Below are positions 25,109-48,121 of a stretch of 64,000 nt of DNA, one piece after another; the stretch's first letter is position 1; each line of letters starts with the position of its first letter. Location of the stretch: NCBI RefSeq assembly GCF_932294415.1, contig NC_065536.1:59731354-59795353 (forward strand), in the 5' to 3' direction. The notes under the pieces are model-generated. The model was not told the DNA's origin, did no database searches, and was given only the letters and a program-made list of their open reading frames with translations. Source of the DNA: Quercus robur. Taxonomy: Eukaryota > Streptophyta > Magnoliopsida > Fagales > Fagaceae. A program made the position numbers and the translations under genes.

Positions 25109-25423
25109 CTCTCTCTAATCTCTATTTCTCTTACTACACATTAAAAAAGTATTATTTACTTTTGCAATTGTGTTACAGACTTACTTAGTACCATCACAAA
25201 TTTGTGTTGGTATAGCACAATTGTAAGTTTTTTTTGGGTTTACAAGTTCGGGTAACGAGGACTTTTGAAATTTTGATGCTAAAACATATCAACATATGGC
25301 ATTTGAAAGACCCACTGTGAATGCTCAACGTGCAATGTTGGTCAAAACTCCAAAGCATATTGTACGTAACACTAGAATCCTATGAATGAATACACGGAAG
25401 AGATCAGGTTCGAAGGGGTAGTA

Positions 25424-25875
25424 CGGATTTTTTTAGAAAATAACTATAAAATCTAAACAATATCATTAGTTAGCAAACGTTTTAAACTATTTTGGTTTCT
25501 AACAATTCGAGTTTATTGGAGTCGATTTGTGGGTTGTAAAATCGAGTTTAGTATACTCGATTTTCCTTTTTTGCAGTGAACGACGTGGGAAATGGGCGTA
25601 CAGAAATCGAGTTAAATAAACTCGATTTCTATGCATACAAACCGAGTCCAATACACTTGGTTTTTACACATAGAAATCGAGTTAAATAAACTCGATTTCC
25701 ATGCATACAAACCGAGTCCAATACACTCGGTTTTTACACATAGAAATCGAGTCCATTGGACTCGATTTCTGTGTGTAGAAAACGAGTCAATTAGACTCGG
25801 TTTGTATGTATAAAAACCGATTAGCGGTTTTTCTACACAGAAATCAAGTCCGTTGGACTTGATTTCTATTTTCTT
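25424..25875 (+). repeat. MULE left terminal inverted repeat with palindrome array
   Basis: The terminal 110 bp match the reverse complement of the right end. They are followed by about ten palindromes spaced roughly 30-45 bp apart, with half-sites AAATCGAGT or AAACCGAGT and 5-7-base centres, at about 25508, 25540, 25607, 25641, 25673, 25708, 25742, 25778, 25815 and 25840. Confidence 0.85.
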
Positions 25876-25879
25876 TTGC

Positions 25880-26320
25880 CACACGTGTCTCTCAACAAAA
25901 CTCTCAAAAAAACTCTCATTCAAAACAGTCTCAAAAAAACTCAGTCCTCCCACACTTTACAGTACTCTCTCAAAAAAAACTCTTTAGTTCAAAAAACTCT
26001 CATTCCCTCCCACACTCACAGTGCATCACTCAAAAAACTCAGTCTCTCTCTCTCTCTCTCACTCTCAGTCCTCTTCAGCTCCGTCGCCGTTCCGTCGCAC
26101 TCGATCTCTCTTCAGCTCCGTCGCCGTTCCGTCGCATTCATTCCCTCTCTTCAGCTCCGTCCTTGTCCGTCGCCGTCGGCCCTCCATCTCGCTTCGGTCT
26201 CTCACTTTCCGTCGCCGTCGCCGTCATAGAAACGTCGCCTTCGCCGTCAGCGTCTCCGTCTCCGTCGCCGTCGCCGTCGCCGTCGCCGTCCCAACAAACC
26301 GCAGGGTATCATTCTCATTT
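25880..26320 (+). promoter_or_regulatory. CT-rich then GTCGCC-repeat leader inside the MULE left end
   Basis: Repeated CTCTCAAAAAACTC-like motifs (25890-26040), a (CT)n run, repeated TTCAGCTCCGTCGCCG (26076-26165) and a (CGTCGC)n tract (26210-26290), then a possible donor (cag|ggtatc near 26304). CT-rich leaders are common in plant 5' untranslated regions. A promoter and non-coding first exon for the rightward PMD gene is inferred only. The several overlapping short frames are low complexity. Confidence 0.35.
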
Positions 26321-27137
26321 GATCTCTTCTTTTTGGGTTTTTATATCAGTGTATGATTTTTGCTTATATGTTCTTTTATTTTTTTTATTTTTTATAGTGA
26401 GTTTCTGTCATTGCCCAGATATTGCTGGGTATGGGTATGGCAATTATAATAGATACGCTTGGAATTGAATAATTAAAGTAATATTATTTCTGGTCTAACA
26501 AAGATATGTTCAAAGCAAATCAATTTGATTGCATGTTAAGATCTAACATAGATTTGTTCAAAGTAAACGAATTTGACTGCATATTAATTTTGGAAGGCAA
26601 TGCAAGAGGAAAAATATAGAAAATCTTCTTATAATTTAACTACAAGAACATATGCTTCACCGGGTTGCATCCAATCCCCTGAATCATTTTTAGTAGTGTT
26701 TGCCACCACTGGCCGAGGTGCATCTCTAGTGTTTGGATCCACCTCTAATTTGGTGTATTGTCCAAATGTTGAGAGTATCATATGATGATTGAATTATTAA
26801 ACATATAAATTTATGGTTATAAGGGTTCATATATTAAGGATTAATAATTGCTCAATTTTGAGCAGTAATGCACATTTTTCAAAGAAGAAAATACATTTGT
26901 TTTAATAATTTATTAGCTTACATGCATAATTTCATTGTGGTTATTGTGTGTGCTTTTTGGAATATATGCGTATAGTTTGTCTGTAATATTTTTTAAATAT
27001 AAATAAAAAAAATAAACATTAAATACATCTTAATCACTATCCTTATGACATTTGTTATATAACAAAATCATTAATTTATTAAACTATAATATGCTCCATA
27101 AGTTTTTTATTTTACATTTATTAAAATTTTAATGCAA
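26321..27137. other. AT-rich MULE interior without a supported gene
   Basis: No exon, RNA or repeat structure that I can support. It separates the leader-like left end from the GDSL segment. Confidence 0.5.
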
Positions 27138-27746
27138 TCAGTGATCAAACAACTCTTTGAGACTATGAGGTCGTATGACATTGGGACTTCCACTCCAAAT
27201 CAGCTCTGCGAATTGCTGGTAGGCTTTTTCGGAAGGATGAGGAGCATCAAAGAACACATAGTCACTAATGTTCCTACATAATTCGTACTTTGGGCCATCT
27301 GCTCTCTTTCCTCCGCAACTATAAATTCCATTATATGGACCAGTTCCACAGCATGCAATCTTCCCTTCTTTAAAACCTTCCCAACATAATTAAAACAAAG
27401 ATGCTATTAGTCTATGGCAAAAATAAAAAACAAAGTACAATTAAAAAAAAAAAAAATACATATCGTACTATTAAAATGGAAGTGACATACCATATTTTGA
27501 AGGATTATCTATTCTTTCACTAAGAAAAGTGTAGAAATCGGCTATTGAATATTTGAGTCCTTTCAGTTCACTCTCTAGCTTCTTAAGGGCTTTAGGAAGT
27601 GCTTTATTGTGTAGTTTCGTAATTGATGTTACTTCCTCCACGCATGGATTGGCTTCTTCTGGTGTCATTGCTTTCACAAGCGGGAAACAACCCAAAGGGG
27701 GCAGGTTTAAGATCACATGTTTTCTTCCTCCTTTCTTATATATTTC
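27138..27746 (-). pseudogene. Captured GDSL esterase/lipase gene segment (last two exons)
   Basis: Minus-strand exons 27491-27746 and 27138-27376 are separated by an intron with GT/AG borders. The first encodes HVILNLPPLGCFPLV and the block ending NPSKYG. The second encodes FKEGKIACCG, then SCGGKR, and finally FFDAPHPSEKAYQQF with the Asp and His of the GDSL catalytic triad, before a stop at 27138-27140. The N-terminal block with the GDSL Ser is absent, so this is a 3' fragment, not an enzyme gene. No break is seen inside it. It lies wholly within the MULE, so capture is inferred. Confidence 0.8.
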
Positions 27747-29541
27747 CTAACAAATCAAATTATAATTATGACCAATGAATTGAGTTATTAATGGGTTTTT
27801 GGATTTTTATTTTTATAAAATGTTTATTATTTCTGTGATTTGAATGCACAAGTTATGCTTACCAGTAAATAGGTAGCATTGATTGCTGGGATGACATGAT
27901 TTCTTATTTATTGAATTGCTGTTTGAACCTAGGGTTTTTATCATGTGGCCTTTTCAATGAACTTTTAACTCTTCACCATCTTGTGTGAAGTTGCCATAAT
28001 CACGATATATGTTCCTTCCTAGCAAATAAATTGCTCTGATAGTTTTTTCTTGTCATGACTAGCATCTAACTGGGTCTAACGTATTTGCATATAAACTTAG
28101 GAGGCATTGAAAAGGCCTGAATAAAAACATCTCTTTAATCTTGGTTTTCTGTTAGGCATTGAACGAGAGGGCAGGGATTTTCTTTATACATATGTACATA
28201 TGTAAAGAATCTATTGATAGATTTCTCATCATTTGGAAATTAAAAAATTACGTTATTAACTGCTCATACAAGTGTAAATGGACTTTGCCATTAATGCTCC
28301 TCTTTCCAATTAATCGTTTTAGTTCTCAAATCAGCATATTTCTTCATTTTTGGCAGTTCCACATATATCATGATGCTTTAACTTTCATTAAATGTCTTAT
28401 TCCTTTTTTTATATTGTTTTATGGTCTTTTGGTTTTATGGTCTTTGTTTCACAACTAGTGACGCCATTCCTGCATTTATAGTCTCTTTCTTATTGAACAT
28501 AATTTTTTTTTTTTTTCGTGTAATTGTTTTGGCTGCTTTGTGCTTTTTGTATGTAGTCTTTTTTTCAATAAAATTATTCTTATAAAAAAAAGGCTCTCCT
28601 AAATATTACAATATGAAATTCATCATATATATTAAAATGTCTGTCTAGAAATTTATTTTCCTTTCTTCCTTCTTTATATAAGCATAGAAATGATGTTCAT
28701 CCATATATATACGTATTTGAGGTGCTAATTGCATTTTATACCTTGCAGGAATAGGCTTGAAAAGGCTTCACAACATAAGCTTTTATTGCATGTAGTTGCA
28801 TAGTGATATTGCAGGTAATGATTCTACTATGTTGCTGCATTTCAAATCTTGGCTGCCATGTTTGCTTTGTTACCTTTGTTCATCTGCTTTACTATACATT
28901 GCTGTTATTGAAAATTTTTTATTTATTTATTTATTTATTTTTTGTCCTGGTCTTTAAATTTTGCATTATATTGTCTTATTTTTAACATCTGGTTCTTCAC
29001 TTCTTCTGCATAGTTTTCACATGAATCTACACAGGCAATGCTGCAATGTTGAAATGATTTTATGATTTCTTACATTATGTTTGGTAGGATGAAGTGTAGA
29101 AATGAGATTTTTCGTACCTAGTTGTGTTGGGGTGGTAGGGTAAAGGCTTTGTTCACCATTGTACCCTGGTTTGGATGTTTTGTTGTGAGTTCAGACAATC
29201 AATTTTAGAAAGTCTTTTAAGAACCCACCCCACAAACTCCTCCCCCCTTTTTAATTTTTTCAGATCTTTTATGTAGCACGTAACTGTAGGGTCCATTTGG
29301 TAGGAGGGAAAATAGTAAGGCCAACTATGTGGGTAGCCCAAATTAATCAACGCGGATATGATTTTCCTTCATTCTTTTTGTCACCTTTTGTAAAACTTCA
29401 TTGTAGCCCAAATTAATTTTATGAGTAAAGAGGACCATCTGCTTGTTGTCAAAATAAACTGAATCATTTTCTTGTTCATCACTTTCCTTGCCAATTTAAC
29501 ATGTGATTATATTACTCTTGACTCCCTAAACTTCGTGCAGT
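27747..29541. other. MULE interior between the GDSL segment and the PMD gene
   Basis: AT-rich. Near 28495-28590 a poly(T) and a sequence ending aataaaattattcttataaaaaaaa resemble a LINE-type 3' end, with low certainty. Nothing else supported. Confidence 0.4.
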
Positions 29542-32500
29542 ATGGCTGCTGTTCCTGCTCAGCTCCCTGATGAGTTTGGTCCTGAGCCCACTGACGATTC
29601 AGTGTTAAGGTTTATAAAAACACATCGAGCGTGCGCTGTTTGGGAAGGCAAGGTAAAAATGAAAACCGATCACCTGCTGAATATTCTCTTCTTATCCTTT
29701 TACATTATGTTGATTTTTTTTTCTTCCCATTTCTGAAATTCTAAGTGTCAATGGTATTACTAGCTTTCAATGCATGGTCATGCGCATTAGTTGGGTTAAG
29801 TTAGATTGGTTGACTGTTAGTGTGGGTGTACATGAACAAAGCAATCCTAGGTTCATAAGAGTTATTTTTGTTTGAAGCAATGTGACCTGTGATAATTTTA
29901 TTGTTGCTTGGCAAGAAGTTGTTCAGGTTGTGGTTGTTGCAGTAATTTTTATTGTTATTATTGAGAACGCTAGCCTTTGCCTCTAGTTTCTTTTACTTTC
30001 CTCTATTTAGGTTGTTTATTTTCCATATCATGTCAAACAGAGCTAAATTTTTTTAAAAAAAATGTGCTTGAGATTGGAAGCAATGGTACATGCATAAAAT
30101 ATGATCCTTAGGTTCCAAAAGCAAAACATAGAAGTTTATATTTAGGAATCCATTTGGAATTACAACTTGTCTAACAAACCTAGCTTAATGAATCATATTG
30201 AAGACAAGCTTTTGTCATAAATCAAATAAAATCCTTAAGGACCCTTTTCACTTGAGTTTCTTACTTGCATTAAAATACTTAGTTAAGTAAATTCAAGGGT
30301 TGGACAACAACAGAGCTTAAGGGAAAACAAACACAAATCAGCAACTATGACAACGAAATACAACCAAATTCCAAGATAGTTACTTAAAGCTTCTTAAATT
30401 AATGAAATAGCTTTAAGAAGCCTTTTGACTTTTCCTGGTTTAGAGGCAGCAATAGGCTGGTCGCATGGGAAGCCTTTCATTACTAGACAAATGTATAAAG
30501 TGCATTGCATCCTTTTATTTTGCTCCCGTTGTTGCTTTTTTTTTTGGTTTTTTTTTTTCTTTTTGGGGTTGATATTTTAAGGTCCCTTCATAATTGCTTT
30601 ATTTTTGTTTTTTGGGATCAATAACTACAATCATATATACAAAGGTTATGGCATATTGCATCTCATCACCATAATTCTATCATGTGCAGGATCCAGGGCC
30701 ACTGAAATGCCGCGGTCGTAATGACGAGTTCCGAAAACGACGCCGGATAGTGGTGGATGATCGTATCGTCGACATTGTGAAGAGAGTTGGATTAGAGGGG
30801 CTGTATAGGACCCCAGGTAGAGAGATTGATCATAACCTGATCACGGCCTTCGTTGAGCGATGGCGGCCTGAAACCCACACCTTCCACCTGCCACATGGTG
30901 AGACAACGATCACATTACAAGATGTGGAGGTTCTTTTTGGGATTCCAATCGATGGTGAGGCAATTGTTGGAACAACTGACTTGACATGGAAAGATGAATG
31001 TCAGAGTCTGCTTGGAATTGCTACTAATGACACCACGCTTAAAGGACAAAGGATCCAAATAAAGAAGCTACTAGAAAAAATTGACGAAGGGTTGCCCGAT
31101 GATGCAACAGAGGTGGTTGTGCATCAATATGCACGGTGTTATATCCTAGCACTCCTGGCAGACACAATTTTCGCCGACAAGTCTGGTGATAGGGTGCATA
31201 CGATGTGGTTGCAGATGCTGAGGAACCTTCGGAATCCACCTCAGTACAGTTGGGGGAGCGCTTGCCTTGCATGGCTGTACAGAGAGTTATGCAAGGCAAC
31301 CGACAGAGGTGCTAGTCAGATTGGTGGGGCCTTGTTGCTAGTTCAGTATTGGGCATGGGTCAGATTCCCTTTTTTGTGCCCAAGGATGGACCTCCCACCA
31401 GATGGTGCATATGGCCCACCATTTGCACCTTCTCCATTGTCTATTAAGTAAGTCTCTTCCTTGACCGATTCTCTCTATTGGAAATAAATCCATAATTTTA
31501 AACACATTGTTAGACATAGAAAATAAAATTTTAACCTTGACAACCACGGAGGTCATATGTTATGATTGATGTATAATATAAGTCTTATTAATTTTTAGCT
31601 CCACCTCTAATCATATGTATAGATAATCATTTATTAGTATAATCTTAGTGGTATGTACTGTTAAATTTACGATTGCCCATCACTTATTGTTGTTGATTAC
31701 TTCATATTCTCAATTCCAAGTATTGACTCCCTCTTTCGCAATTGTAGGACTGTGTGGGTTGTGAACACCTTGAATAGCCCCGCCGAAATCTGTCTGGTCC
31801 GGTACCGTCAGCTTTTAGATTGTATGCATCCAAAACAGGTACCAACATTGTGTTTATTCTATTGTTTATGACTATTGTTTATGATTATTGTATTTATAAA
31901 TGTAAAAGAGCTCATAGATATGGAACATTGCATAATGTGCTGCCCTTTGATTTGACTATTTTAGGTGGTGTGGCAACCATATGAAGCTGAATTAGCCCAC
32001 CTGCCTGCGTTTTGTGTCGCCGGAAGGGATGTATGGACGGCAAAGGTACCGCTTGTATGTTTCTGGCTAGTAGAGAAACATACACCGGACCGTGTTGTTC
32101 GTCAGTTCGGGATGGTACAAGAACCCCCCCCATATGTTGATACTGACGAAGCCCTTCATGCCATAGACCTGAGGGGGAAGGTGGAGGTGAATTGGAGGGA
32201 CAGACATGATGGCCATATCCGAGTATGGAATACTCGAGCACGATCTCTATGTCTTGGAGCACGACTAGAGGGTGATATGTCGCCTGCTCATCCATACTTC
32301 GATTGGTACGATAGGGTGACTTGGAGGTTCGTCGACCACACTTCGGCTTCACTTATTATTATGGTAATTGCTTCGACCTTTCTTTTCAATTTTTGTTGCG
32401 TATCAGGAACTTCAGTATGATGTACTAATTGTATTTATTTACTTTCAGGTTGCCAGTCACAAGAAGTTGTTGAGACTTTATACAGTAGGCAGTCTTGAGT

Positions 32501-33447
32501 ACAAGCATATTTCAGCTGTACTTAAGACAGTGGAACGCCTTCACCATATAACTGCTCGACTTCCGTTGGAAGATATCGATGGGGCAAATCCAGAAGTGCC
32601 AGAAGATACTGGACGACCAAGCACGAGCTCAACTCGTGCCAGCCATAGCCATGGTCAGCGTGCTGCATCCCATCAGGTTGTCAGTAGGGCAGATCTCCCT
32701 CCACCCCCACGTGCATCTCCTGCCCCAGAGTTCCCTCCACCTCCACATGCATCTCCTTCCCTAGAGATCCCTCCACATACTGCTCATGCAGTTTCTGACC
32801 TAGATATCTCTCTACCCACTACTCCTGCATCTTTTCACCCCGAGATCCCTTCACACACCTCACATACATTTTTTGATCCTGCTCATCTTTCATTTACTCC
32901 ACCATCCTTTGATCTCGGCCCTGATTTCAATCAAACCCCTCCTGTCATGCACACGCAATCCCCATCGTACAACATTGGTCATATAGACCATGTACCGCCC
33001 CATAGTCACTCCATGTCATTCATGCCCACTCCTAGACTGCATATAGATCCCATGAGTACGGGCACTCACATTTCATTTGCTACACCATCCTCCCCCGCAG
33101 TTGTTGGGAGTCAAGCAAAACAACCAGCTGTGCATGTTGAGAATGAGCAGGTTGTTGGGTTACAGTCACCCCCACAAGGTCGACCTAAACGTACAATGAA
33201 AGCACCTCCTTGTGGGACAGGTGGTCACAAAGCAGGACACAACGCTGGCCCCACGGTATGACAAATCATTTAATGTAATAAATATCGAGTAACTACTGTT
33301 ATGGTTGGTATTGGAATTCATGTAATCCATTGTTTGGTTGTAACTTCATCTTTGCAGCAACGTGAGGAGCCTCACGAAGGAGATGCAGTACCCCCTCCCC
33401 CACATACCAGACACTATACGAGACAGCATAAGCGTAAAATGCATTAG
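29542..33447 (+). CDS. Plant mobile domain (PMD, MAIN-like) protein; exons 29542-29652, 30690-31447, 31748-31838, 31965-32363, 32449-33255, 33358-33447
   Basis: The six exons have GT/AG borders and matching phases, totalling 2,256 nt (751 aa). Residues about 55-420 form the plant mobile domain (VGLEGLYRTPGREIDHNLI, ERWRPETHTFHLPHGE, TITLQDVEVLFGIPIDGEA, then WLYRELC...GGALLLVQYWAW and VRQFGMVQEPPP). The C-terminal third is Pro/Ser/His-rich with imperfect repeats (SPAPEFPPPPHASPSLEIPP-like) and a basic end. PMD proteins include host MAIN/MAIL factors for genome stability and silencing, and many transposon-borne copies. This copy lies inside the MULE and points toward the transposase gene, so it is probably element cargo. 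The start is the first ATG of exon 1; upstream non-coding exons are possible. Confidence 0.85.
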
Positions 33448-33819
33448 GATTAGCATCCCATAGAGGTTCGCTCTCTCTCTCTCGCTCTCTGAAATCACTT
33501 TTTTTTTATTTATTTAATTCTTTTAATGCTTTCAAAACATTCCTAATTATTTGATGTGGGTTTATCAAGAAACAAAGGAGGACACTCGAGAATTGGAGTT
33601 TCTGACCCTAAGTGATGATCAGCACTTAGCTTAGAAAACACCTCACTCTTTCTAGGTTGGACCTGAAAATGCTTCACAGGTTTGTTAGGATCTCTCTTTC
33701 TGCCATATTAATGGTGTTTTTAACAATTAATTTGAATTGACTTTTAGGTAAAATGATAATGTAATGCTTTCAGTTTTCAAATTTTGAACTGCACGTTATA
33801 ATTTTTTGCCATGGAGCAG
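33448..33819. other. PMD gene 3' flank
   Basis: A (CT)n run at 33474-33490 and AT-rich DNA up to the Fd-GOGAT segment. No gene supported. Confidence 0.5.
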
Positions 33820-36017
33820 GTTTGTCCAGCCCCGTACTGAATGAAGGGGAGCTTGAGTCCTTGCTAAATGATCCCTCTTTGAAACCTCAAGTTTTGCCAA
33901 CATTTTTTGATATTCGTAAAGGAGTTGATGGTTCCTTGGAAAAGACACTAAATATATATAGTGAAGCTGCTGATGAAGCTGTTCGAAATGGTTCCCAACT
34001 GCTTGTTCTGTCAGACCGTTCTGATGTGCTGGTAAAAAACTTTCACCTTACCTCTGTATTCATCCTGAAGTTATCTTTGTTTTTATATCTCAATCCTTTT
34101 TTTAGCTCATTGAGAGTTTATATCTACTGTGAGCATGAGTTAATTTTATTAAGTTAAAAAGAATTATATTTAGTTAAATGACCATTGAACAGAAACTTTT
34201 ATAGTTCACTACTAGCATTATTCTGATCATACCGATGTTTGAACTTCCTGATTATTATTCGTTGTCCTGCATTTTTCTTGATAAAGTTTTATGGCTTTAT
34301 AAAATATTGTATGTTATGCAAACGATTGCCATTTGTCCTACATGTAGTGGGTCATGTTCTAGTGTGTATGCATGAGTTTTTACGTAAACACACACACACA
34401 CACATATATATGTGCGTGTGTGTGGTACTTTAACGTAATCCTCATTAAAGCCTGGGAGGAAACTTTTTTGTAGACTGATTTTCTTATGTTGGAGCAATGC
34501 GTTGTTTCTTTTTCTTCCAGGAACCAACTCGTCCGGCAGTTCCAATACTTCTGGCTGTTGGTGCGGTTCATCAGCATCTTATTCAGAATGGATTGCGAAT
34601 GTCAGCTTCTATTGTTGCAGAGACTGCACAATGCTTCAGCACTCATCAGTTTGCCTGTTTGGTTGGATTTGGTGCAAGGTAATTTTTCCCTTGTGAAAAT
34701 TTTTAAATAATGGATTTCTTTTTATTTGTTGAAAAAAATTAACAAATATTGTTTCTTGTGCCATATTTTCTTAAAGCATTATTTTATTTGGTCTGATACC
34801 AGTTACTCTAAAATGTTCTCAGATAAATTCACTTTCTGTGTGTTAGTTGCATTATCTTAGACAATTTCATAGATCCTTTATAGTTGACACCTATGAAAAA
34901 AAATAGATCGTTTATAGCTGATCCCACTGTGAGAAGCAAAAAATTAATAATCAATATATATTATAATTTAATTATTGCAATTAAAAATTAACTGCTTTAA
35001 TTTTTTTTTTACTTACAAATGGGGAGGGGGATTTGAACCCATACTCTCTCCATGGAGAGGAGCATACAATGCTACTGAGCCATGAGGCTCTTGGCATTTG
35101 TACGGCATACATAAAATAGAACAAAGTGTATTTCTGTAAATGAAGGAACAGTTTTTTATTACTTATAAAAAAAAAAAGTAGGAATAGTTTCTTGAAAGTA
35201 AAGCTATAAGTTGCAGGGACAAGATTACTTTCTGGAAATGTCTCAGTAGCTGATTAAATCCCGCTAACAGTGTAGAATATTGTAAAAATGCTTTAAATGT
35301 ATAATAAGTCCTTTTTTTTTTTTTTTTTTGCTAAACAATGTATTGCAAACTTCTGTTCCTGTTTTACATGCACGTTTGGTTGTGTTAATGCTTGACCAAA
35401 CTGTCTTATGAAAAGATCTTAGAGGGTTCTACATCCCTCTGAATCAGAATCCTCTTCTTCATCTTCATTCCATTATTTGGGCTTGTTGATACTTTTACGT
35501 CTATTTTTTATCTTGAAAATGCTTAACACTATATCTCTTGAATTATTTTTTCAGTGCCATATGTCCATACTTGGCACTAGAAACATGCCGACAGTGGCGT
35601 CTGAGTAATAAAACCGTAAACAATTATGAGGAATGGAAAGATGCCTACTGTAACAATTGAGCAGGCTCAAAAGAACTTTTGCAAGGTCAGTACATCAATA
35701 TTAGAAGGAATATTTTAGGGATGAAAATATTTTGCTGTAATTTTCTAATGCAATTCATGTAATATTGTTCCCATAGCGTGTGTTGGCCCAATTCAATCCA
35801 GGCACTTATGTCAAGTGCGTTAGAACTTGATGATTCATTTTAGTGAGTTCCACCTTAAGAATTATCCACTTCTGGTTTATCTGTGGTTTCAATAGAAAAA
35901 AATGTTGCTCTATTCCATTGCTTTACTATTTTATACTGATTGTTTCTAATTATTTCAGGCTGTTAAATCCGGTCTTCTCAAAATTCTTTCCAAAATGGGA
36001 ATCTCATTGCTTTCTAG
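33820..36017 (+). pseudogene. Captured ferredoxin-dependent glutamate synthase (Fd-GOGAT) gene segment
   Basis: Four exon-like blocks with intact acceptors and donors: 33820-34031 ([26 protein letters not shown]), 34521-34678 ([29 protein letters not shown]), 35555 to about 35684 ([15 protein letters not shown], then the [13 protein letters not shown] equivalent) and 35959-36017 (SGLLKILSKMGISLLS). These match the central domain of plant Fd-GOGAT in order. The third block carries one extra base near 35620-35625, which throws the frame and creates an in-frame stop. The segment has no beginning or end of the gene, so it cannot make the enzyme. Introns are retained, indicating DNA-level capture. 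Confidence 0.85.
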
Positions 36018-36039
36018 GTATTAACTCTTTTTATTTTTA

Positions 36040-36080
<41 letters not shown>

Positions 36081-36269
36081 TTTAATCATGAATACCTCCG
36101 GTGTACTAGAGTGGCACTAATGTAATACCTGTTTTTTGTTCACTTTGCTAATTATATTCCCATTATACGTATAAAATATTCCTTTCCCATGTATATGAAA
36201 ACAAGAGCTCCTATCAGCAGTCCTGGTTAATAGGCAGCAATTTTGACTAAATATCTAAAATTTGCAGGC

Positions 36270-36530
36270 TTAAGCAAGGGAGAAAGCTGAAAAAGAGGGA
36301 TTTGAAGTAAGCAATCCCAAGACCCAAAATTTGGTGGCTAACACAAAGGCCCTAGCAGAAAATGAAGGGGAGGGACTTGCCAAGGTTACATTTCTTTTAC
36401 TTTTGTGCCTTGATTTATCCACCCCCTAGCTTAAATAAGTGTCCCTGCTCAGCACACTGTAATTCATCTTGATTATTACAGCACAGTTGAAGAGTTGGTG
36501 GAAGTGGGTCCTGAACAATTAAAGGAGGTA
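36270..36530 (+). pseudogene. Unidentified captured exon fragments
   Basis: Exon-like pieces 36270-36379 ([20 protein letters not shown]) and 36481-36526 (TVEELVEVGPEQLKE) end in GT donors. I do not recognise the protein. They may be two consecutive exons of one captured host gene. Confidence 0.35.
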
Positions 36531-36650
36531 AGGAGTTTTTTTTTTTCTTTTTTATAAACCTATAGTTGTAAGACTCCAGAACATATGACCTTACAAGAGT
36601 AATTGTGAATCATTTTCCCCCCTAGTAAAAGATATAAGGTGTTAGCAAAT

Positions 36651-36783
36651 AGCTTTCAATGAAGGGATGATATCCTCCTCCATTAACTGAGGCAGTGGCT
36701 TGGCCGCAGCTTTTGCTGGAGGTTTGGCCTTTGCTGGAGCTTCTTCTTGAGCTGTCTTCACCTCCTTTGTGGGTCCAATGATA
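36651..36783 (-). pseudogene. Unidentified captured coding fragment, minus strand
   Basis: The minus strand reads PTKEVKTAQEEAPAKAKPPA, then LPQLMEEDIIPSLKAI, with good coding character (Ala/Lys/Pro-rich linker followed by an acidic helix) before the frame closes. The source gene is not identified. Confidence 0.35.
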
Positions 36784-37461
36784 ATGTAGTATGCCTTACT
36801 TTGTGATAGTTATTATTAAATTACCATCTCATATATATACACACACACATATATCACCAAATTGTTCATTTTCTTTCCCGGCTGATAATTAGTAGCACAA
36901 AAGTCAATTGTTTTTAAAAAAATAACAAAAAAAAACTACTGGATATGTTGAATTCTCCATTTATTTTTTTGTATCCCTTGATTTGTTATCACTTTTTTGG
37001 CAATTGAACAAGACTCAAAACACAAAATAATAGTCTTTGGTGTGTAGAACAACTCGCTACAGCATATTCCAGAAAATAAGAAAATTACCAAACTACCCCT
37101 AGTTTTAGTAAGACTTTATTAAAACTGAACCAGCAACTTTCTAAAGTAAAGAAACTAAATACTTAGATTTAATAACAACTAAAGTAGCCTTTAAAAGGTG
37201 CCAAAAAGCCCCCCACGTCAAAATTAGTCCATAATTCTAGGTTTACTATTTAATCTTGTTTCTCCTTGAACACTTTACTTTTTGCATCATTAAGCCTAAC
37301 GTATAAGTTATCATTTGTCCTTAATGCCATTATCTTTCAGGTACTTAATATACCGACTAAGATGAATGAGGTGACTAATAACTTATGTTGAATCATTTTG
37401 CTCATACAGTCATTGATAGTCATCCTTTAATACTGATCATTTGTGCATCCTTTTTGTGCAG

Positions 37462-37508
37462 CTGTTGGTGCCATATTGTCAGCAACTGATTCAGTTTGCA
37501 CGCTGCAG
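37462..37508 (+). pseudogene. Captured single exon of an NHX-type Na+/H+ antiporter
   Basis: A 47-bp exon with clean AG and GT borders encodes AVGAILSATDSVCTLQ, matching the conserved transmembrane block (GAIFSATDSVCTLQ) of plant vacuolar NHX exchangers. No neighbouring NHX exons are seen. Short, so identity rests on this one motif. Confidence 0.6.
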
Positions 37509-37663
37509 GTACACGATGTTCATCCTTACATGAATGTTATACATGGCAGCATTTTAGGAGAGCAGCCTCTGTTCATGTTGTGTATCCTCCTTATAGAGCA
37601 TTTTAAAATGCCATTCTTTCACATACTAGTTGATATCTGATTAATGGATTCTGGCTTTGAAAC

Positions 37664-38169
37664 AGGGACAAGGAGCTTGTCATTTCCTTCAATGGGAGGA
37701 TACTCAAGAAATTACCACAATTAATGATCTTGTAGATGAAAGCAAACATGGCATATCTGTAGATTCTACTTCAACAAGCCATGAGTTAGTCACTAAAATG
37801 GGTGATTTGAGTACTAATAATTGAAAGAGGAAGTTTGATTCACTAGAGATGGAAAATCCTCAACATCTCCCAACTTCTGTGGCTGTACATGAACATTTTG
37901 AGAAAGATCAAGAGCCTGTCATAGAGAGGAGTGAACATGATGAGAGTTCAGAGAATTTAACATCTACAAAGTATATTGATCCATCACGAGTTGAGGACTC
38001 TTCAAATCTCCAAGACCTAGCTGTGCTGGAGGTTGAGTTGACTGTAAGTGAACCTTCTGCTCTTACTGTATCTTTGCATTCTTGTTGGCCTTTTGCCAAT
38101 GGTGATTGGTACAGTTTTTGTGTCAATCATAAACTCCTCGTGTATGCACTCCATCTGTGTTCAGTGTGA
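37664..38169 (+). pseudogene. Unidentified captured coding-like stretch
   Basis: Reads GQGACHFLQWEDTQEI after an AG acceptor, then a Ser/Glu-rich stretch with one stop near 37824, continuing to about 38042 (VERSEHDESS-type composition). The source is not recognised. A GRF-type zinc-finger remnant is a weak possibility. Confidence 0.3.
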
Positions 38170-39512
38170 AATGCTCCTGTCTATCATCATTAATTGTCTG
38201 ATATTTAACTAGTTAACACTTGTGACATGGTATGACCTGATTAGACATGGTGTGACTTGGGTGGGGTAGTGTGAGTTGTGAGGGTGGTTTTGATAGTTGT
38301 GGAAAAAAATGCCCACACCTTATATGGAGGAAGTGGGGAATATTTGGCTAAACAAAAACGGGAAGGCTGCTATCCTTATATATGAATTCTCAATTTACAT
38401 GCTGGATTGGCTACATTAATTCTTACATCTAAATTTTGGATGGAGTGAGTGTACTGCTCTCCAACCCCCCACCTCCAATCCTTTTGTTTTACTTGTTGTT
38501 GGCTAGCAAGGTATTATCGGCCAATTGACTATAATTGGAGCCTATCTTTAGCTAAACTAGAGCTTTCAATCTTTTTTGCAACTCAAGTTTGCATCCTTTC
38601 CTGCCATTGTCCTTTCGGTGCTGCAATTCAGATCATTTGTGTCCATTGGTGCAGCCATTGGACAACAACAAATCTTGCACTTGATCATGGCAGCTTGCCC
38701 TGAATTAATGCAAGCCATAAGCCTGTAACCACCAAGAATTAAGCAAGCATCTTCTTTTGCCATATGCCCTTCTGATCAGTTTGTGCCTGTCTGACTATCA
38801 TGATCTGATAGGTACAGGAACATGCCAATTTTGCTGTGTTTGAAGTATTTAGGATTCTAGAAAGAAAAAAAATGATAAAAACTTAGGATTCTTTTTGACA
38901 ATAATCTGAACTTTTTGAATATATTTATATTGTAGCCAAAGAAAGAAAATGGATCGTACTAGATTTAATATAGTACTATATTTGCATGTTTTTAATATAG
39001 TAAACTAGTATGCATCGCACTATATTTGTTGAGCTAATGTCTACCATCCTTTTGTGCCTGAAATCATTTATTTATTCAGCATTCGTTTATTAAATATGTA
39101 GTCACATAAAGAACAAGTTTTCTCATCCATCTGATCTTTCCTTTCCTTTTTTGAACTCTGCTTTTATTTCTTTTAATAAATTGATACCTGTTGTTACTTT
39201 AGTTTTCATTTCATATCCATTCTGTTCTTTTTATTTCAATGTGCTTTTTTTATCATCATCATTCTTGTTGATGTTGATATTATTATTAGAATTATTTTGT
39301 TAAGAGAAATTAAGATTCAATATAAAACGTCATCCAGATAAATTGTATCTTTTTAGTATTGCAGTATCGACATGTCTACAGTATCACATAAGAATTCAGT
39401 TTTAGCCATTACAGCCCTCCTAAAGTTTCATGAATCATCTTTCTGGTGAATAGTTTATGTTTCTAATCCTTTATATTCTCATCATTAATTCATTGGATAT
39501 TTGACTCGGCAG
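38170..39512. other. MULE interior without a supported gene
   Basis: AT-rich with pyrimidine tracts. The short frames here show no recognisable domain. Confidence 0.5.
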
Positions 39513-40617
39513 TATAAGATGGAAGACACTGCTTAGCTTCAATTGTCGGAACCGATTGCTGCTGACTGGTACACCTATCCAGAATAATATGGCAGAGCTG
39601 TGGGCCCTTTTGCATTTTATTATGCCAACCTTATTTGACAGCCATGAACAATTTAATGAGTGGTTTTCAAAAGGGTAAGCATTTTTTCTTTGGTTGGTTC
39701 ATCTTTTCGGTGAGTGTAGCCTGCAGTCTACAGAATTATAATATTTTCCTATCAATGATCTTTTACTGCATTCTATCAGAATCGAGAACCATGCAGAGCA
39801 CGGGGGTACTTTGAACGAGCACCAGCTTAACAGATTGGTGAGTTTGCCTTTTTCAGTATTGTCATTGTGAGAGTGAGCAATAAAGTTTTTTTGTCTACTT
39901 GCTGCCACGTACCATCCGAGACCATATATGTATGCTATTTAAAATAACTACAATAATTCTCAGTTTCTTTTGAGATCATGATCTCTTCTGCCTTCACTTT
40001 TGACCTTTGATATTAATATAACTATATCTTTCTAACTTGTATTTTGGTTGCCTTTTTTCTTACAGCATTCAATTCTTAAGCCTTTTATGCTGCGAAGAGT
40101 TAAAACAGATGTAATTTCTGAGCTGACCAGGAAAACTGAGGTTACAGTGCATTGCAAGTTGAGTTCTCGCCAGCAAGCTTTTTATCAGGCTATTAAGAAC
40201 AAGATATCTCTTGCCGAGTTGTTTGAGGGCAATCGTGGGCATCTTAATGAGAAGAAAATACTAAATTTAATGAATATTGTCATTCAGCTGAGAAAGGTAT
40301 ATTCTCAATTCTATTGGCATTCTGTTTGGTTCCCCTTCTTCATTTAAAAAGTATAACTTATCAACTCTGTGGGGGCAAGAAGTTGTGGAGTTTCATGCAT
40401 TTTGTCTGTCATGTGGAATATTTCTTTTTACTAGTTGTCCATGACATGTGTTCCAATGGTGCAATGGTAGGTGTGTAATCATCCAGAGTTGTTTGAAAGG
40501 AATGAGGGAAGAACATACCTCCACTTTGGGGAGATCCCAAATTCTCTTCTGCCCCCTCCCTTTGGGGAGTTGGAGGACGTGCACTATGCAGGAGGTCACA
40601 ATCCTATAACATACAAG
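39513..40617 (+). pseudogene. Captured INO80 chromatin-remodelling ATPase segment
   Basis: Four exons with GT/AG borders and no internal break: 39513-39674 ([20 protein letters not shown], the Snf2 motif III region), 39780-39837 (ENHAEHGGTLNEHQLNRL), 40066-40296 (ILKPFMLRRVKTDVISEL, KKILNLMNIVIQLRK) and 40471-40617 (VCNHPELFERNEG, GELEDVHYAGGHNPITYK). The order and sequence match plant INO80. Helicase motifs I-II and IV-VI are absent, so it is a fragment. Lying within the MULE with introns retained, it was probably captured as genomic DNA. Confidence 0.88.
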
Positions 40618-41534
40618 GTACGTTCTTAAAGCTTTTTCTGCCTTACATTAATGTTTTTGTTTGTTATATATACTACCAAAACATTAAGGTTCACTGTCAT
40701 GAAAATGCCAACCTTACTAAATACTCAATTCTTAGGTTTCTCTTATAGCTTTAAAAGTGAGGAAAGTTGCTTTGCTTCTTCTTCTTCTTCTTTATTTATT
40801 TATTTATTTATTTTTAATAAAATAAGTGAATACTTCATGCATTTGCACTTGCTTTATGTGTTTGGCTATAGACATGACACATGTACAAAAAAAATTAAAA
40901 AATTAAAATTAATGATTCTTTTTTGTTGATAAGGGCAGATTGTTCTGTATTTTTTTTGAGTTAGGCCAGCAGGCTAATATTTTTTTCTAGGAGGTCATTT
41001 GGTGAGCTCAAATATTTTTTTGTGGGGGAATGGGGGGGGGGGAGAGGGGTGGGCAATTCAATTTTTTCGAATCCCAGCCTTTGGCAGGCCTCTATATATG
41101 TGCGTGTGTGGGTGTTGTAAATGGGAATTCAAATTTTGGTGGGCACCATAGCCACCCAAGGGATATTTTGACTCTTCCAATGTGATGAGAATGCACGCTC
41201 CAGCTTCATTCTCTGCTTTAGTTTATGAGAATAAGGAACTTGAGCTCTTTATAGTTTATGTTTCTCTTGCTTTGTTCTTGCTAACTTGCTGCTTGCCCTT
41301 ATCAGTTATCTGTTAATATATATATTTTTTCTTCCAGTGACAGATTGTATAAGTCAAGTTTTAGGACTTCATATTCTGGGTTGGTTGGGCCGGCTTGCTT
41401 TCCCTCCTCCTCGATGTTTATTAGTTCTTCCACCTCGGCCTCTCTCTTGTGGTAAATACAGATTACATTCCATTTGTTTGGTTTTTTTTCCCTCTTTCAT
41501 CTTTGGTTGTGACTCTGATTCATATTTTTGGCAG

Positions 41535-41970
41535 GTGTTTTCCCTAATTTTGATTCCATATTTGTTCCTCGAGATAAAGATGTGTCTAATTGTGAAGGCT
41601 CTGCTGACCTGCATCATAGTCCTTCAATTGTTAAATTTGATGAGACGTCATCACAAATATCTTGTCGTGACGCTCAGTCTTCGAGTGAATTGTCAATCCC
41701 CAAGAGTCCTTATGTGTTTGGCTAAAAGGTAGCGTAACAACTTTAAACGTGGATGTGCTTGAGCAGACAGTGTTGCATGTTCAAAATCAGCTTCTTACCC
41801 GTCTTGAATCAATGAATCCGCTTCAACACGAGTCCATGACACAGGTGTTTATTGTTTATTGTTTCTCTCTTTTTGGTTGTTTTTTGATGAATGAGCATGA
41901 TTGCACTGATGGTACTGACCAAGCTTCAATTGGAAGTTGTAGCATCAATGCTCAAAGCACGAATAATTAA
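41535..41970 (+). pseudogene. Unidentified captured coding-like fragments
   Basis: After a gcag acceptor near 41532-41535 the frame reads VFPNFDSIFVPRDKD, then SIVKFDETSSQISCRDAQSS, to a stop near 41725. A second piece (VLEQTVLHVQNQLLTRLESM) starts near 41751. Composition looks exon-like but I do not recognise the source. Confidence 0.3.
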
Positions 41971-42764: not shown

Positions 42765-45587
42765 CTAGTTTGGATTATTACTGCTTGTCGAAGCCCCACG
42801 GGAAAGCGGACATCTTCTACGGTTATGCCCATGTTGATGACACAGTCCACAGCTCTGCTTTTGCTGAATCTCCCTCAAGTCAGAATCTGGCCTCCGGCTT
42901 CCCGGTTCTCGCCGGACCCCATCCATCTCATTTCGTATCCTAGACGCCACAGGTCGACCTTTGCCCCGCAACAGTTTTGGGTCAGGCACCCACTTTGGAC
43001 CATCCACATCCCTCCACAATGAATCTGACTTTGGCACCACAAATGCATGTGAGTAGGTGTGAATGGCGTTCACCAAACTATAACATGGGTCAATATATGC
43101 AGTCGCATCTTGCCCCAAGTACTGAAGAGCTTTAATTGCATGTGAACAAGGGATCTTTCTAATTTGCCACTTTCCACAACCACATGTTCTGGCCTTTACA
43201 TTTACTTCATAACTATGGTGTCCCCCTCCAGAGCTATAGATGTTGTATGAAGTAATTACTTGATATATACCATTCTGATTATTAAACGGATTTATTTGGT
43301 GTGAAATTGATTTTTGTAGGTTGTGTCCATAGATTTTTAAGGCATATTTAGTCCATACCTTGTCCTTTGAGAGCTCATGAGTAATTTCTTTGTGTCGATC
43401 ATGGAAATACGCAACAAGTTTGCAATGAGTGAATTCAACCATTGCAGCAATGGGTAGGCCACGGGCACCTTTGAGTACTCCATTGAAGCACTCCGAGACA
43501 TTGGTTGTCATAGCCCCATAACGGTATCCACCATCATGTAGTTGGGTCCACTTGTCTAGATCCTCATTCATTAGATATGTGTATGGCATGATGGATGAGT
43601 CGGGTTCACTTTCCTGCCGCTCGGTTCTCCGTTTCTTCCTAAGGGCCTCGATCTCAGCTTCCTTGATAGGTTGCATGTACAGCTCAAATTTTGATTCCTT
43701 AGTAGCATACCCCGCTTTCAAGGCTAATGACTTTAAAGTGGCGTCCTGAAAATGCGTGTTGAAGTTGCTAGCAACATGTCGAAGGCAATATCTGTGAACT
43801 ACTCGTTGTCGTCCATCATCATGTCTAGGCCAGTTTGCAATTGCACTTTGAATACCCTTATGTCGGTCAGAAATTATACAGATGTCCTTATCTGCTATCA
43901 CATCCCCCAGTGCATTCCTGAGGCGTTCTAAAAACCACCCCCAACTAGACCCTGACTCTTTGTCCACAACAGCAAAGGCAAGAGGCAAAACCTTGTTGTT
44001 GGCATCGGTGGCCATTGCAATCAACAACACCCCTCGATATTTACCATACAAATGGGTCCCATCAATACTGATCACTGGCTTACAATGTCTGAATCCTGCA
44101 ATGCATGGAGCGAAAGCCCAAAATATATAGCGCAATATTGTATCACCGAACTCGTCCCTGGGTATGGTGTGAAACCAGAAACGGGTGCCAGGTTCTTGAT
44201 CCCAGTATGCAAACAATAACTTTTTCAACCTTTCGTAAGACTCTTCCCAATCCCCAAATATCTTTGCAATACCTCGTTGTTTCGCATCCCATATCTTATA
44301 GTAAGAAAGAATATGCCCATAATACTTCCCTTTAATGAAATGTCTGAGGTGATAAATTGTTGCCGTGTGTTTCTCTTTCAACAATGGAACAAATTCTTCT
44401 GCTAGAAAATTACAATCCATCATTCTACCATCAAGGGCCGTGGCAAGGGGCATACAACTATGAGGACCCCTATAAGATGTGACCATCCATAGTCCGAGTT
44501 CAGGCTTCACAACTGCCCCAACGTACCACATGCATGATTCATCGCTGCATTTCACAGACAGTCTACTTGTGGTCGACCTACTAGTCACAAAGTTTCTGTT
44601 ATGCTTTGCGGCGTAAATTGTTAATGCACGTCTCACCGCATCTTTATTAGCAAAAATCAACCCTTTCGCAAAATTCATGTCTGCATTCCAAGAACCAAAT
44701 GATTGCTGAACAACTTCAGGATCAACCATATTTTCCCAAGTATTTTCATAAAATGATGAGGCAGGAGGTTCATAAACGAGGGCCGTATTTGTAACATGCT
44801 GAACTCTAGCATTAGCGTCCTCATCATCTTCATCACATTCAGCCATATCATCAACATGAGGAATGTGAGTAATTTCATGGTCATCAAGACCCCTGTCAAA
44901 GTCACCATCGTCAATCCTCTCTTCATACTCATCTCTATCCTCACAATCTTCCCTAGAACAGTCTTCGTCTTCATCTTCATCTTCAACTACTGGAACTGTA
45001 GAGGATTCACCTCGATGTGTACAAAATTGATCTTCATATCTATTTCCAGGTTCACTCTCAATTGTTACTGGTGTCTCTTGAAAAGGGGGTGTATAGCCTC
45101 CCAATGTGGTGCATTGATCATCTAGGACTGCAAACTGTAGAGATGTAGTTGTTTGTACAATTTCGTCTTCTACGCCGACTTCTGCACGAGGCTCCAAAGT
45201 GACATATAACTCAAAATCTGCTGCTTGTTTCCATTTGTCCATCTTACTAAACATGAATTTCACATGTTTGTCCTCTGTTATCGCCATATATCTGTAATTA
45301 ATGCATTGATTGAGGACTTCATATGGAGAACGGAAAGTAATATGTATGTCATGCAAAGCAGGGTTCACTTGCAACTCTTCCATAATTTTTACTTTCAGCT
45401 CATTCAGGGTCTTTAGCTTACGGCGTATCATCATATAGTAGCACTGGATACCCGGACCTTGAAATGAGGCTCCATCATAAGGGTTGGCATTGCTAAGGGG
45501 TCCACCATAGTATATATTTATATAGATCATTGTCAACCTATAGATCATCAAGTGCAATTGTGTTAGTGACAAATTTATAACGCTCAA
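42765..45587 (-). CDS. MURA/MuDR-type Mutator transposase
   Basis: A 940-codon unbroken minus-strand frame. In order it has a PB1-like N-terminus (ELKVKIMEELQVNP, VKFMFSKMDKW), an acidic linker, a MuDR-type DNA-binding region (GLIFANKDAVRRAL, then VKCSDESCMWYVGA), and a MULE DDE core with VISIDGTHLYGKYRG (first Asp), ICIISDRHKGIQSAI (second Asp) and TTNVSECFNGVLKGAR (probable Glu). These are followed by a SWIM zinc finger (CGCGKWQIRKIPCSH) and a C-terminal CCHC knuckle (CGLCHQHGHNRRRC). It would cut and paste elements carrying the matching TIRs. It reads toward the PMD gene. The real start may be the Met at 45530 (MIYINIYYGGPL), since family proteins often begin like that. All expected catalytic blocks are present. 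Confidence 0.93.
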   Translation of the reverse strand: MSVINLSLTQLHLMIYRLTMIYINIYYGGPLSNANPYDGASFQGPGIQCYYMMIRRKLKTLNELKVKIMEELQVNPALHDIHITFRSPYEVLNQCINYRYMAITEDKHVKFMFSKMDKWKQAADFELYVTLEPRAEVGVEDEIVQTTTSLQFAVLDDQCTTLGGYTPPFQETPVTIESEPGNRYEDQFCTHRGESSTVPVVEDEDEDEDCSREDCEDRDEYEERIDDGDFDRGLDDHEITHIPHVDDMAECDEDDEDANARVQHVTNTALVYEPPASSFYENTWENMVDPEVVQQSFGSWNADMNFAKGLIFANKDAVRRALTIYAAKHNRNFVTSRSTTSRLSVKCSDESCMWYVGAVVKPELGLWMVTSYRGPHSCMPLATALDGRMMDCNFLAEEFVPLLKEKHTATIYHLRHFIKGKYYGHILSYYKIWDAKQRGIAKIFGDWEESYERLKKLLFAYWDQEPGTRFWFHTIPRDEFGDTILRYIFWAFAPCIAGFRHCKPVISIDGTHLYGKYRGVLLIAMATDANNKVLPLAFAVVDKESGSSWGWFLERLRNALGDVIADKDICIISDRHKGIQSAIANWPRHDDGRQRVVHRYCLRHVASNFNTHFQDATLKSLALKAGYATKESKFELYMQPIKEAEIEALRKKRRTERQESEPDSSIMPYTYLMNEDLDKWTQLHDGGYRYGAMTTNVSECFNGVLKGARGLPIAAMVEFTHCKLVAYFHDRHKEITHELSKDKVWTKYALKIYGHNLQKSISHQINPFNNQNGIYQVITSYNIYSSGGGHHSYEVNVKARTCGCGKWQIRKIPCSHAIKALQYLGQDATAYIDPCYSLVNAIHTYSHAFVVPKSDSLWRDVDGPKWVPDPKLLRGKGRPVASRIRNEMDGVRREPGSRRPDSDLREIQQKQSCGLCHQHGHNRRRCPLSRGASTSSNNPN

Positions 45588-45589
45588 TC

Positions 45590-47100
45590 AACATCAATCA
45601 CAAAACTTTGCGTATGAAATGCCAACAATACTAACCTCAACCAAATTTGCATATACTCACCTTTAGTAATCTTACAAAAATAGTCATTACCAATTTCATA
45701 TTCTTTAAAAATTCTAAATCATTCTAGGGGCATGACTTTCAAAACCCATTCAAATAAGTTATGATGAACAAAATATTATATACCAACCAGTTATCCATTG
45801 AAATCTCTGTTACAAATCTTAAACAAATATATCTTGAAATAATTTATGGTAAAAAGACTACTATCTTAGGTATCAAACTCATAATGTTATGATATATCCA
45901 TGAGAAAGACCTAAAAGTACTAAATATTCCTAACAATTGATCACAATATTTAGTACTAAATATTCCCAATAATTAATCACAATATTAATTTTTTTTTTAA
46001 CTTAGCATATTATCACAATATTTACACTAACAAACAAAACAAATATTCCCATATGTTGTAATAACATAATAATCACAATATTTGGTACTAAATATTCCCA
46101 ATAATCACAATATTTGTAGTTATTTTCTAAAAAAACCCTAATGACTCCATTCTTTTTGCCAATATCTAATCCCCTAAAATCCTAAAGGGCTATGGAAATG
46201 GACAGCGTTTGCTCTCTTTCTATTTTTAAAGTCTGCTCCTTTTTTCCTAACTTGGAATGTTACAAATGGTAATAACACCAAATATTTGTAAATTTTTCAC
46301 AAACTATACGTGCTCGTGCTGCACCATCCTTACACATTCATTCATGGTCATGGTCATGGTCATGACCATTTCATGTTACAATTTTACTGTTGCAACTTCC
46401 TTAAAAAAAATAAAAAATAATTGGATTTATAAAATAATTGGATTTATGCCAAAAAAGTTTTATATATTCTCTTAAATGAAAAAATAAAAATAAAAAGGAA
46501 AAAATTGCATATCTAGAGTACTCAAATTTTCACATAATAATCACAATATTTGGTACTAAATATTCCCAATAATCACAATATTAACTTTCTTAAAAAAAAA
46601 CTTAGCAAATAATTTAATCACAATATTCACACTAACAAAAAAAAAAAAAAAAAAAAAATTCCCCAATATGTTGTAATTTAATCAAAATATTTACACTAAC
46701 AAAAAAAAATTCCCCAATATGTTGTAATTTAATTACAATTATTTACTAAATATTCCCAACAATTAATCATTAAATTACTACTCATTATAGATATTTTTTC
46801 TTAAGTAGATTTATGATCTTATATAAATGTGTTATAACATTAATTTAAAAAAAAAAAAAATAGCAAATAATCACAATATACTAACAAATAAATTAATCAC
46901 ACTATTTACACTAACAAATAAGAAAAACAAAACATTTCCTAATATGTTCTAAATTTTTCTTTAAAAAAAACCTAGCAAATAATCACAATATACTAACAAA
47001 TAAATTGATCACAATATTTACACTAACAAATAAGAAAAAACAAAACTTTTCCTAATATGTTCTAAATTTTTCTTTAAAAAAAATCTAGCAAAATAATCAC
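45590..47100. repeat. AT-rich block with dispersed AATCACAATATTTACACTAAC repeats
   Basis: Phrases such as aatcacaatattt, actaaatattcccaataat and cctaatatgttctaaat recur many times (45940-46170, 46535-46760, 46860-47095). It lies upstream of the transposase gene. No gene supported. Confidence 0.7.
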
Positions 47101-47154
47101 AACATTGTAAAAATATTACCTGAGAATGTTGTGTGATGAGTGTTCTGTGAGTGA

Positions 47155-47420
47155 GTTGAATATAGAGACTGTGAGTTGAAAGAGTGTTCAAGAGAACTTA
47201 TATTCACAATACAGAGAGAGCATATAGAGACTGAGTTGAAAGAGTTGAAAGAGAACTTATATTCACAATACAGAGAGAGCATATAGAGACTAAGTTGAAA
47301 GAGTTGAAAGAGTGTTTAAGATAACTTATATTCACAATACAGAGAGAGCATATAGAGACTGAGTTGAAACAGTTGAGAGAGCATAAGACAGTCTTGAGTT
47401 TCTGATATTCACAATACAAC
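47155..47420. repeat. Minisatellite of about 60-70 bp, subterminal in the MULE
   Basis: Three clear units with TTCACAATACAGAGAGAGCA then TATAGAGACT start at about 47203, 47262 and 47331. Partial units lie at both sides, and internal GAGTTGAAA repeats are present. Confidence 0.85.
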
Positions 47421-47574
47421 TTATTCCCACGGCAAGAGAGAACTTATTGGAGCTGGGACCCACAGACACATGGAGGGCTGGGGACTGAAGCTGCTGTGGG
47501 GGAACTGTGATGCCCACGTGAAAGCTGCTGTGGGATGGGAGTGTTGCTGTTTGATGGAACTGATGCTGGTTTAT

Positions 47575-47912
47575 AAAAGGAAATCGAGTCCAAAGGACTC
47601 GGTTCCTAAGCCTGAAAAACGAGTTCGTTAAACTCGACTTCTAAGGCTGGAAATCGAGTCCAATGGACTCGGTTTCCAGGCTTTGAAACCGAGTGCAAGG
47701 GACTCGGTTTCCATGCTTTAAAACCGAGTCCTTTGGACTCGATTTCCAGCCTTAGAAGTCGAGTTCTTTTAACTCGATTTCTAGCAATAATAAACTAATA
47801 AACCCAGGAAATCGTGGATACTGAACTCGAGTTGCTATATTCCAAATTAGTTTCAAACGTTTCCTAACTAATGAAATAGTTTCGGTTTCAAGGTTATTTT
47901 CTAAAAAATCCC
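47575..47912 (-). repeat. MULE right terminal inverted repeat with palindrome array
   Basis: Seven palindromes with half-sites AAATCGAGT/AAACCGAGT/AAGTCGAGT lie at about 47578, 47615, 47651, 47685, 47720, 47756 and 47810. The terminal 110 bp then mirror the left end, and the 9-bp target duplication follows at 47913-47921. Confidence 0.85.
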
Positions 47913-48121
47913 GGGGTAGTACTTTACTCTCGACCATTGCTTCCTCTTCTCATATGAGGGTGGTCCATGTGAGTCCCACCATTAAGCCCACCTTCATGGG
48001 AGAAATAGAGACTCCCAACTATCTAATAATTTTCCGGTTCAAGTCCCTTTAACTTTATGTACCCCAAAATTAAATTTGCCTCAAAAAGTCAAGAACACTA
48101 CAGTCTGCACTAGTCAGAACC

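Follow-up and report, generated by a model that had tools for sequence, protein, structure and literature searches.

A 22.5-kb MuDR-type Mutator-like element with host gene pieces in Quercus robur, and its sibling copies

Introduction

Did the 22.5-kb block between two inverted ends at positions 25,425 to 47,912 of a 64,000-nucleotide stretch of Quercus robur DNA (contig NC_065536.1, 59,731,354 to 59,795,353; the whole stretch is called the window here) reach its place as one mobile element, and what kind of element carries so much host sequence? We consider it very probable that the block is a member of a young family of MuDR-type Mutator-like elements (MULEs), multicopy and potentially autonomous, which has taken pieces of host genes into its interior one after another and transposes in whole units of approximately 11–27 kb. 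The block has defined ends and was inserted whole, sibling copies and donors of the host pieces are found elsewhere in the genome, and the family exists in forms with and without one of the captures, that of a GDSL lipase/esterase piece.

Sibling Copies and Whole-Unit Insertion

The genome compared was the window's own assembly (786 Mb, 42 contigs, given C-numbers below), and the queries were the left 111 bp (40 places scored of 520 candidates) and the right 110 bp (40 scored of 248). Ten left ends, the window's included, are at least 99% identical, and all ten pair in the correct orientation with a 100% right end at a spacing of 10,699–26,867 bp. Other copies with the same ends and a similar size, as envisaged by an earlier sequence-only reading of this DNA, do exist: the ten pairs span 10.7–26.9 kb and six are more than 22 kb apart. 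Seven were read end to end, namely the window copy and six siblings, C39 (22,657 bp), C41 (24,557 bp), C35a (23,439 bp), C35b (26,382 bp), C2a (11,248 bp) and C2b (10,699 bp). The remaining three, C2c (26,867 bp), C3b (16,495 bp) and C35c (11,785 bp), are known from the pairing of their ends and from internal matches over part of their length. Another two right ends at 100% (C40 at 50.88 Mb and C5 at 42.66 Mb) have no such left end among the 40 scored left candidates.

All seven fully read elements share the same termini and are flanked by perfect 9–10-bp duplications, every one a different sequence, and a chance match is therefore excluded. When the flanks of C39, C41 and C2b, the three siblings tested, were joined, each pair of flanks matched paralogous loci that span the target (one place compared for C39, one for C41 and two for C2b). 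The empty paralogous site of C39 has the target once, with 212/220 aligned positions identical. That of C41 also has it once (206/217 identical), with a 2-base gap within the target, and the two found for C2b have it once with one target mismatch (131/139 and 128/136 identical). The proposal that the whole block moved as one unit is supported by these siblings with their own perfect duplications and by the empty sites of the three tested.

The copies are close to one another. Divergence is 0.14–0.85% in the right 4.1 kb and 0.10–1.46% in the left 1 kb; the closest aligned copy to the window's at the right end is C41 (0.14%), and C2c, which is outside the alignment, matches the transposase region of the window at 100% (rounded). 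The window copy is without some internal segments present in siblings. Related ends also bound 12 short elements of 0.94–1.6 kb, with perfect 9–11-bp duplications, among 30 loci from the left-end search. An element at C5:42643887-42660895 has a right end 100% like the window's, and its left end belongs to a different type (91% against the right-end query), likely through end exchange between subfamilies. Oppositely oriented end matches 22–27 kb apart were also seen at C40:47058153-47084895, C2:97652575-97675306 and C35:32081056-32103150, where internal modules of the window element are also present, mostly at 97–99%.

Element Limits and Terminal Repeats

On the forward strand of the window GGGGTAGTA occurs exactly twice, at 25,415 and 47,913, and on the other strand it does not occur. 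The string common to both flanks is one base longer, GGGGTAGTAC, with its left copy at 25,415–25,424 and an exact match at 47,913–47,922. Sibling copies begin with GGATTTTTTTAG and end with CTAAAAAATCCC; therefore, with limits set from the sibling termini, the element spans 25,425–47,912 (22,488 bp) and is flanked by a 10-bp duplication. The sequence-only reading was right about the perfect repeat at both ends, and its values for the duplication length (9 bp) and the first base (25,424) are each corrected by one.

An inverted-repeat scan had paired 25,424–25,528 with 47,809–47,913, with GGGGTAGTA at their outer edges. The left terminal inverted repeat (25,425–25,535, forward strand, starting GGATTTTTTTAGAAAATAAC) and the right one (47,803–47,912, reverse strand, last bases CTAAAAAATCCC) are identical at 82 of 110 aligned positions, and the inverted ends exactly flanked by a direct repeat 22.5 kb apart, as first described, are borne out by this match together with the 10-bp GGGGTAGTAC. 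Decay of the window copy as the cause of its unequal ends is ruled out, both end types being identical in many copies: among the 40 scored places for each end, the left 110 bp is found at 100% identity at eight and the right 110 bp at 12, window included. Subterminal arrays of 35-bp palindrome-like units, detected by repeat scan at 25,602–25,820 and 47,579–47,785, adjoin both terminal repeats on the inner side. As for nested insertions as a source of size, the repeat scans, which were the whole of the search for nested elements, placed inverted repeats of at least 40 bp in the terminal regions only and listed no direct repeats of at least 100 bp inside the element.

Transposase and Family Membership

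The unbroken transposase reported before is real: a single open frame of 927 aa on the reverse strand (42,765–45,548) encodes a MuDR-type (MURA-like) protein with MULE, MuDR DNA-binding and SWIM zinc finger domains. Its Pfam matches are all above cut-off (PF10551, E=3.7e-17; PF03108, E=2.6e-07; PF04434, E=7.7e-09). A few strings of conserved appearance were located in the protein, and its catalytic acidic residues are putative. Judged from its sequence, the element is a MuDR-type MULE with terminal inverted repeats by all marks tested, which comprise the MURA-type domains, the 9–10-bp duplication in all seven giant copies, and terminal repeats of approximately 110 bp with subterminal arrays. 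It shares with Pack-MULEs the host gene pieces within MULE ends, with donor loci located, and departs from them in carrying a 927-aa transposase frame where they are non-autonomous. A Helitron is ruled out by the terminal inverted repeats and the 10-bp target-site duplication. The transposase would act on the terminal repeats, perhaps together with the subterminal arrays.

Host-Derived Pieces and Their Donors

Several foreign gene segments had been suspected in the interior, and donor loci were indeed found: pieces with a located donor make up 6,669 of the 22,488 bp (30%), or 34% if the module at 28,448–29,489 is added. This module is 94% like C40:25683515-25684536 and is related to further loci. 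The leftmost piece (26,394–27,775, reverse strand) is from a GDSL lipase/esterase gene, with Lipase_GDSL matched in two frames, one above the Pfam cut-off; its donor, C4:73465214-73466598, is 99% identical over 26,392–27,779 and sits in a cluster of related loci.

A glutamate synthase piece occupies 33,654–36,059 on the forward strand and consists of two donor blocks, 33,654–35,829 and 35,828–36,059, which come from C35:40423069-40425246 (94%) and C35:40427827-40428060 (97%), with a donor-internal skip between them. Its name rests on Pfam (PF04898), since the search against solved structures gave no matches at E 0.01. The donor, at 40.42 Mb on C35, is approximately 0.4 Mb from an element copy at 40.81–40.84 Mb of the same contig, which may be chance. 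To its right follow modules common to related elements elsewhere in the genome at 93–99% (36,067–38,386) and a module with a donor-like locus at C40:9470998-9471682 (38,376–39,059, 96%).

The piece at 39,058–41,250 (forward strand, PF00176) is from an INO80 chromatin remodeller, INO80 chains being its best match among solved structures, and its donor is C35:46065380-46067562 (99%). In C39 the donor match extends further left (60 bp compared), while the window copy is cut at 39,059. An older gene module (41,246–41,847, forward strand) is 96–99% identical with related elements. After this module, four of the six siblings (C39, C41, C35a and C35b) have a segment of 2,244 bp that includes a class-III aminotransferase piece, so named from Pfam in two of three frames. 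C2b has part of it and the window copy is without it; the donor is C6:20594104-20595836 (97%), and another similar locus lies close by. Loss from the window copy is probable and the simpler reading, because its nearest relative among the aligned copies, C41, carries the segment and the right-end tree groups the two with full support.

Donor matches continue through non-coding stretches; therefore, genomic DNA was copied. Cargo also differs in a diverged relative, C4a (C4:29282401-29302400), where an open frame of 338 aa is accompanied by others. Four of its frames were tried and gave no Pfam families; this cargo may resemble chloroplast calcium-sensor/rhodanese proteins.

Alternative Explanations

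The second unbroken gene noticed earlier is a plant-mobile-domain (PMD) gene at 29,542–33,261 on the forward strand, recognised by PF10536 in two frames and completed by a splice model. Its five modelled exons (29,542–29,652, 30,690–31,447, 31,748–31,838, 31,965–32,363 and 32,449–33,261) give a 723-aa frame that is open in the window; the model is predicted from sequence, with the end of the first exon chosen among three frame-keeping options. It is tempting to see a working accessory gene of the element here, acting for example against host silencing, and the five-exon frame is also open in C41, C35a and C35b. According to PMC5418596, PMD proteins act in Arabidopsis silencing and an anti-silencing role of MULE-borne PMDs is raised as speculation. 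However, the modelled frame has stops in C39 and C2a, and C2b, reduced to the first PMD exon, nonetheless has a perfect target duplication. Against C4a, a decayed relative with stops in both genes, the PMD dN/dS is 1.18, compared with 0.48 for the 385 transposase codons compared. We regard the accessory role as doubtful.

Beyond the reading given at the outset, we lean, by a small measure, towards a stronger one, in which the MULE lineage mobilises itself, has been active recently and may still be so, and captured host genes serially while transposing at 22–27 kb, pre- and post-capture forms being present in one genome together with donors at 94–99%. The giant copies could alternatively be passengers moved in trans by the transposase of another element. 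Sources would not be scarce, as 27 loci in the genome are at least 90% like the transposase region, 26 covering the entire frame, and C2a has only a 636-aa frame while its duplication is perfect. Nevertheless, the 927-aa frame is open in six of seven copies, with 99.8–99.9% protein identity to the window, and five of these six are 22.5–26.4 kb long. Open frames are no proof of function, and we hold mobilisation in trans to be unlikely, a little more so than the accessory role of the PMD gene.

How the host pieces entered can be approached at their borders. At the position of the window's 1.38-kb GDSL piece, C2a, C2b and C4a read ATTTTTT-GGGTGTAATG-TGAATTGAG, and the match of C3b starts at this border too; the first three keep the older junction, and the window shows the captured state. 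The right GDSL border has TGAA common to donor and element, and the blocks on both sides of the glutamate synthase skip share TG. C39 is without 33,656–37,921, with a TAG overlap at this deletion, and the window copy is without sibling segments at 39,059 and 41,847, the latter with a repeated TTTATTG. In the captured aminotransferase segment, 95–1845 is followed by an inverted 125-bp stretch from the start of the same donor. Taken together, the short overlaps, the skip, the strand switch and donors left in place favour template-switching gap repair, because this is what such repair predicts. Captures would then begin with a gap or break in the element's interior, filled by repair synthesis that switches to an ectopic template, and the same repair ending early would account for the internal deletions of several copies, the window's included. 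In animals, Pack-TIR capture by template switching with a median microhomology of 2 bp is described in PMC8277862.

Instead of repair at each capture, other elements that carried genes might have inserted here and brought the host pieces, or elements might have exchanged them. The modules at 36,067–38,386 and 41,246–41,847 are common to related elements at 93–99%, and exchange does occur, since the element at 42.65 Mb of C5 pairs this right end with a left end of the other type. On the other hand, the non-coding stretches in the donor matches exclude retrocopies, inspection by eye of the 60 bp to each side of the borders of the GDSL, glutamate synthase and INO80 pieces showed no ends of a second element (a systematic search was not made), and the donor-internal skip and the inverted piece also speak for repair. 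Insertion or exchange as the general route is in our judgement improbable. Finally, two separate short MULEs flanking an ordinary host gene block might be imagined, as the related ends of the 12 short elements and the match of the two ends at only 82 of 110 positions could suggest, but this is practically dismissed, for ends and interior are found together at unrelated loci, flanked by perfect duplications, and the gene pieces have donors elsewhere. Two short elements around a syntenic block, the arrangement that the sequence-only reading had set against its own proposal, are excluded by the sibling copies.

Several points count against our preferred reading of a self-mobilising family with capture by repair. 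For the empty site of the window copy itself, no place across the joined flanks was found among 40 candidates scored; the right-hand relatives of these flanks begin at query position 655 of 900 or later, at neighbouring loci including resistance-gene paralogues. Mobility by its own transposase is a prediction from the open frame and the young copies. The one pair tested for constraint on the PMD gene (the window copy and the broken C4a) gave none, and two of five other copies examined have stops. Junction overlaps are few, measure 2–4 bp and were read by eye without a chance model, and elsewhere, as on the left of the aminotransferase piece, borders are blunt or have extra bases. The right end does not separate the copies without the GDSL piece (C2b and C35b differ by 0.15%), whereas the left end does; recombination between copies is the likely cause of this disagreement, or else poor resolution.

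Comparison with Known Elements

The comparisons below hold for the accessible parts of the papers cited. In size, the element is a step up and not a separate class. It had been described as far larger than ordinary MULEs and Pack-MULEs, and larger it is, but grapevine families reach 11–17.7 kb (PMC2528002 Table 4) and a few large grass ones exist (PMC9168764). Mutavine-1 and Mutavine-18 of grapevine (PMC2528002) resemble it in being MuDR-type and transposase-bearing, with terminal repeats of 70 and 230–263 bp, and are smaller (17.7 and 16.2 kb). In the same work, ULP1 regions occur in several families and cellulose synthase introns and exons in one, whereas the window element has a series of captures. 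Among the Abermu MULEs of grasses (PMC9168764), which are MuDR-related with 8–12-bp duplications, coordinates in Table 1 give approximately 15.4 kb for one of Brachypodium and approximately 19.2 kb for one of Hordeum spontaneum, marked as nested; most, in contrast, are 3–10 kb with one to three frames, and donor-traced host pieces are not described there.

Pack-MULEs (PMC6431247, PMC8903248) likewise hold host gene pieces between MULE ends and are amplified by transposition, but they are non-autonomous by definition (PMC8903248, PMC3310237) and the window element has a transposase frame. No member of the rice Pack-MULE set of 2004 (Jiang et al.) exceeded 7 kb; the review that states this also describes maize Helitrons that reach 39 kb and hold nine gene fragments. 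KI-MULEs and KAONASHI (PMC13317346, PMC2528002) are also transposase-bearing MULEs with host-derived coding sequence; however, theirs is one old conserved domain in a non-TIR MULE, while pieces in the window family are recent and vary between copies. In the PMD-encoding MULEs of PMC5418596, from several grasses and from Amborella, the domain is fused to the transposase; here the PMD gene is separate and on the opposite strand. Animal Pack-TIRs, formed by gap filling or FoSTeST (PMC8277862), share template switching and short microhomology with our proposal, and differ in their hosts from this plant MULE, which has a transposase frame and several captures per copy. A MULE of 22–27 kb with several donor-traced captures was not found in the literature searched, which was mostly outside subscription papers and preprints.

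Genomic Neighbourhood

To the right of the element, 48,122–63,999 holds two or more resistance-type genes, represented by TIR, NB-ARC and LRR frames, with related blocks approximately 9.2 kb apart. The first TIR (resistance-domain) frame starts approximately 0.2 kb from the element, and the insertion may affect the promoter of this first gene. To the left, direct repeats at 17,665–23,091 (93–97%, approximately 4.94 kb apart) surround a copia-type reverse transcriptase piece at 19,361–19,816, probably a long terminal repeat retrotransposon, and a frame with a UvrD/REP-type helicase domain lies at 2,265–3,515.

Significance

There is no settled account of gene acquisition by MULEs. In this family the captures are young, their donors remain in the genome and some sister copies do not have the capture, which would allow repair models to be tested at each junction. 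The copies indicate that MULEs move as units approximately three times the 7 kb that no member of the first set of rice Pack-MULEs exceeded. The gene pieces listed here would be missed by pipelines in which transposase-bearing elements count as merely autonomous. If the self-mobilising lineage towards which we lean is real, the boundary between autonomous MULEs and Pack-MULEs would result from the way they are defined, and MULEs with related ends would be able to transpose over a 28-fold range of length (0.94–26.9 kb).

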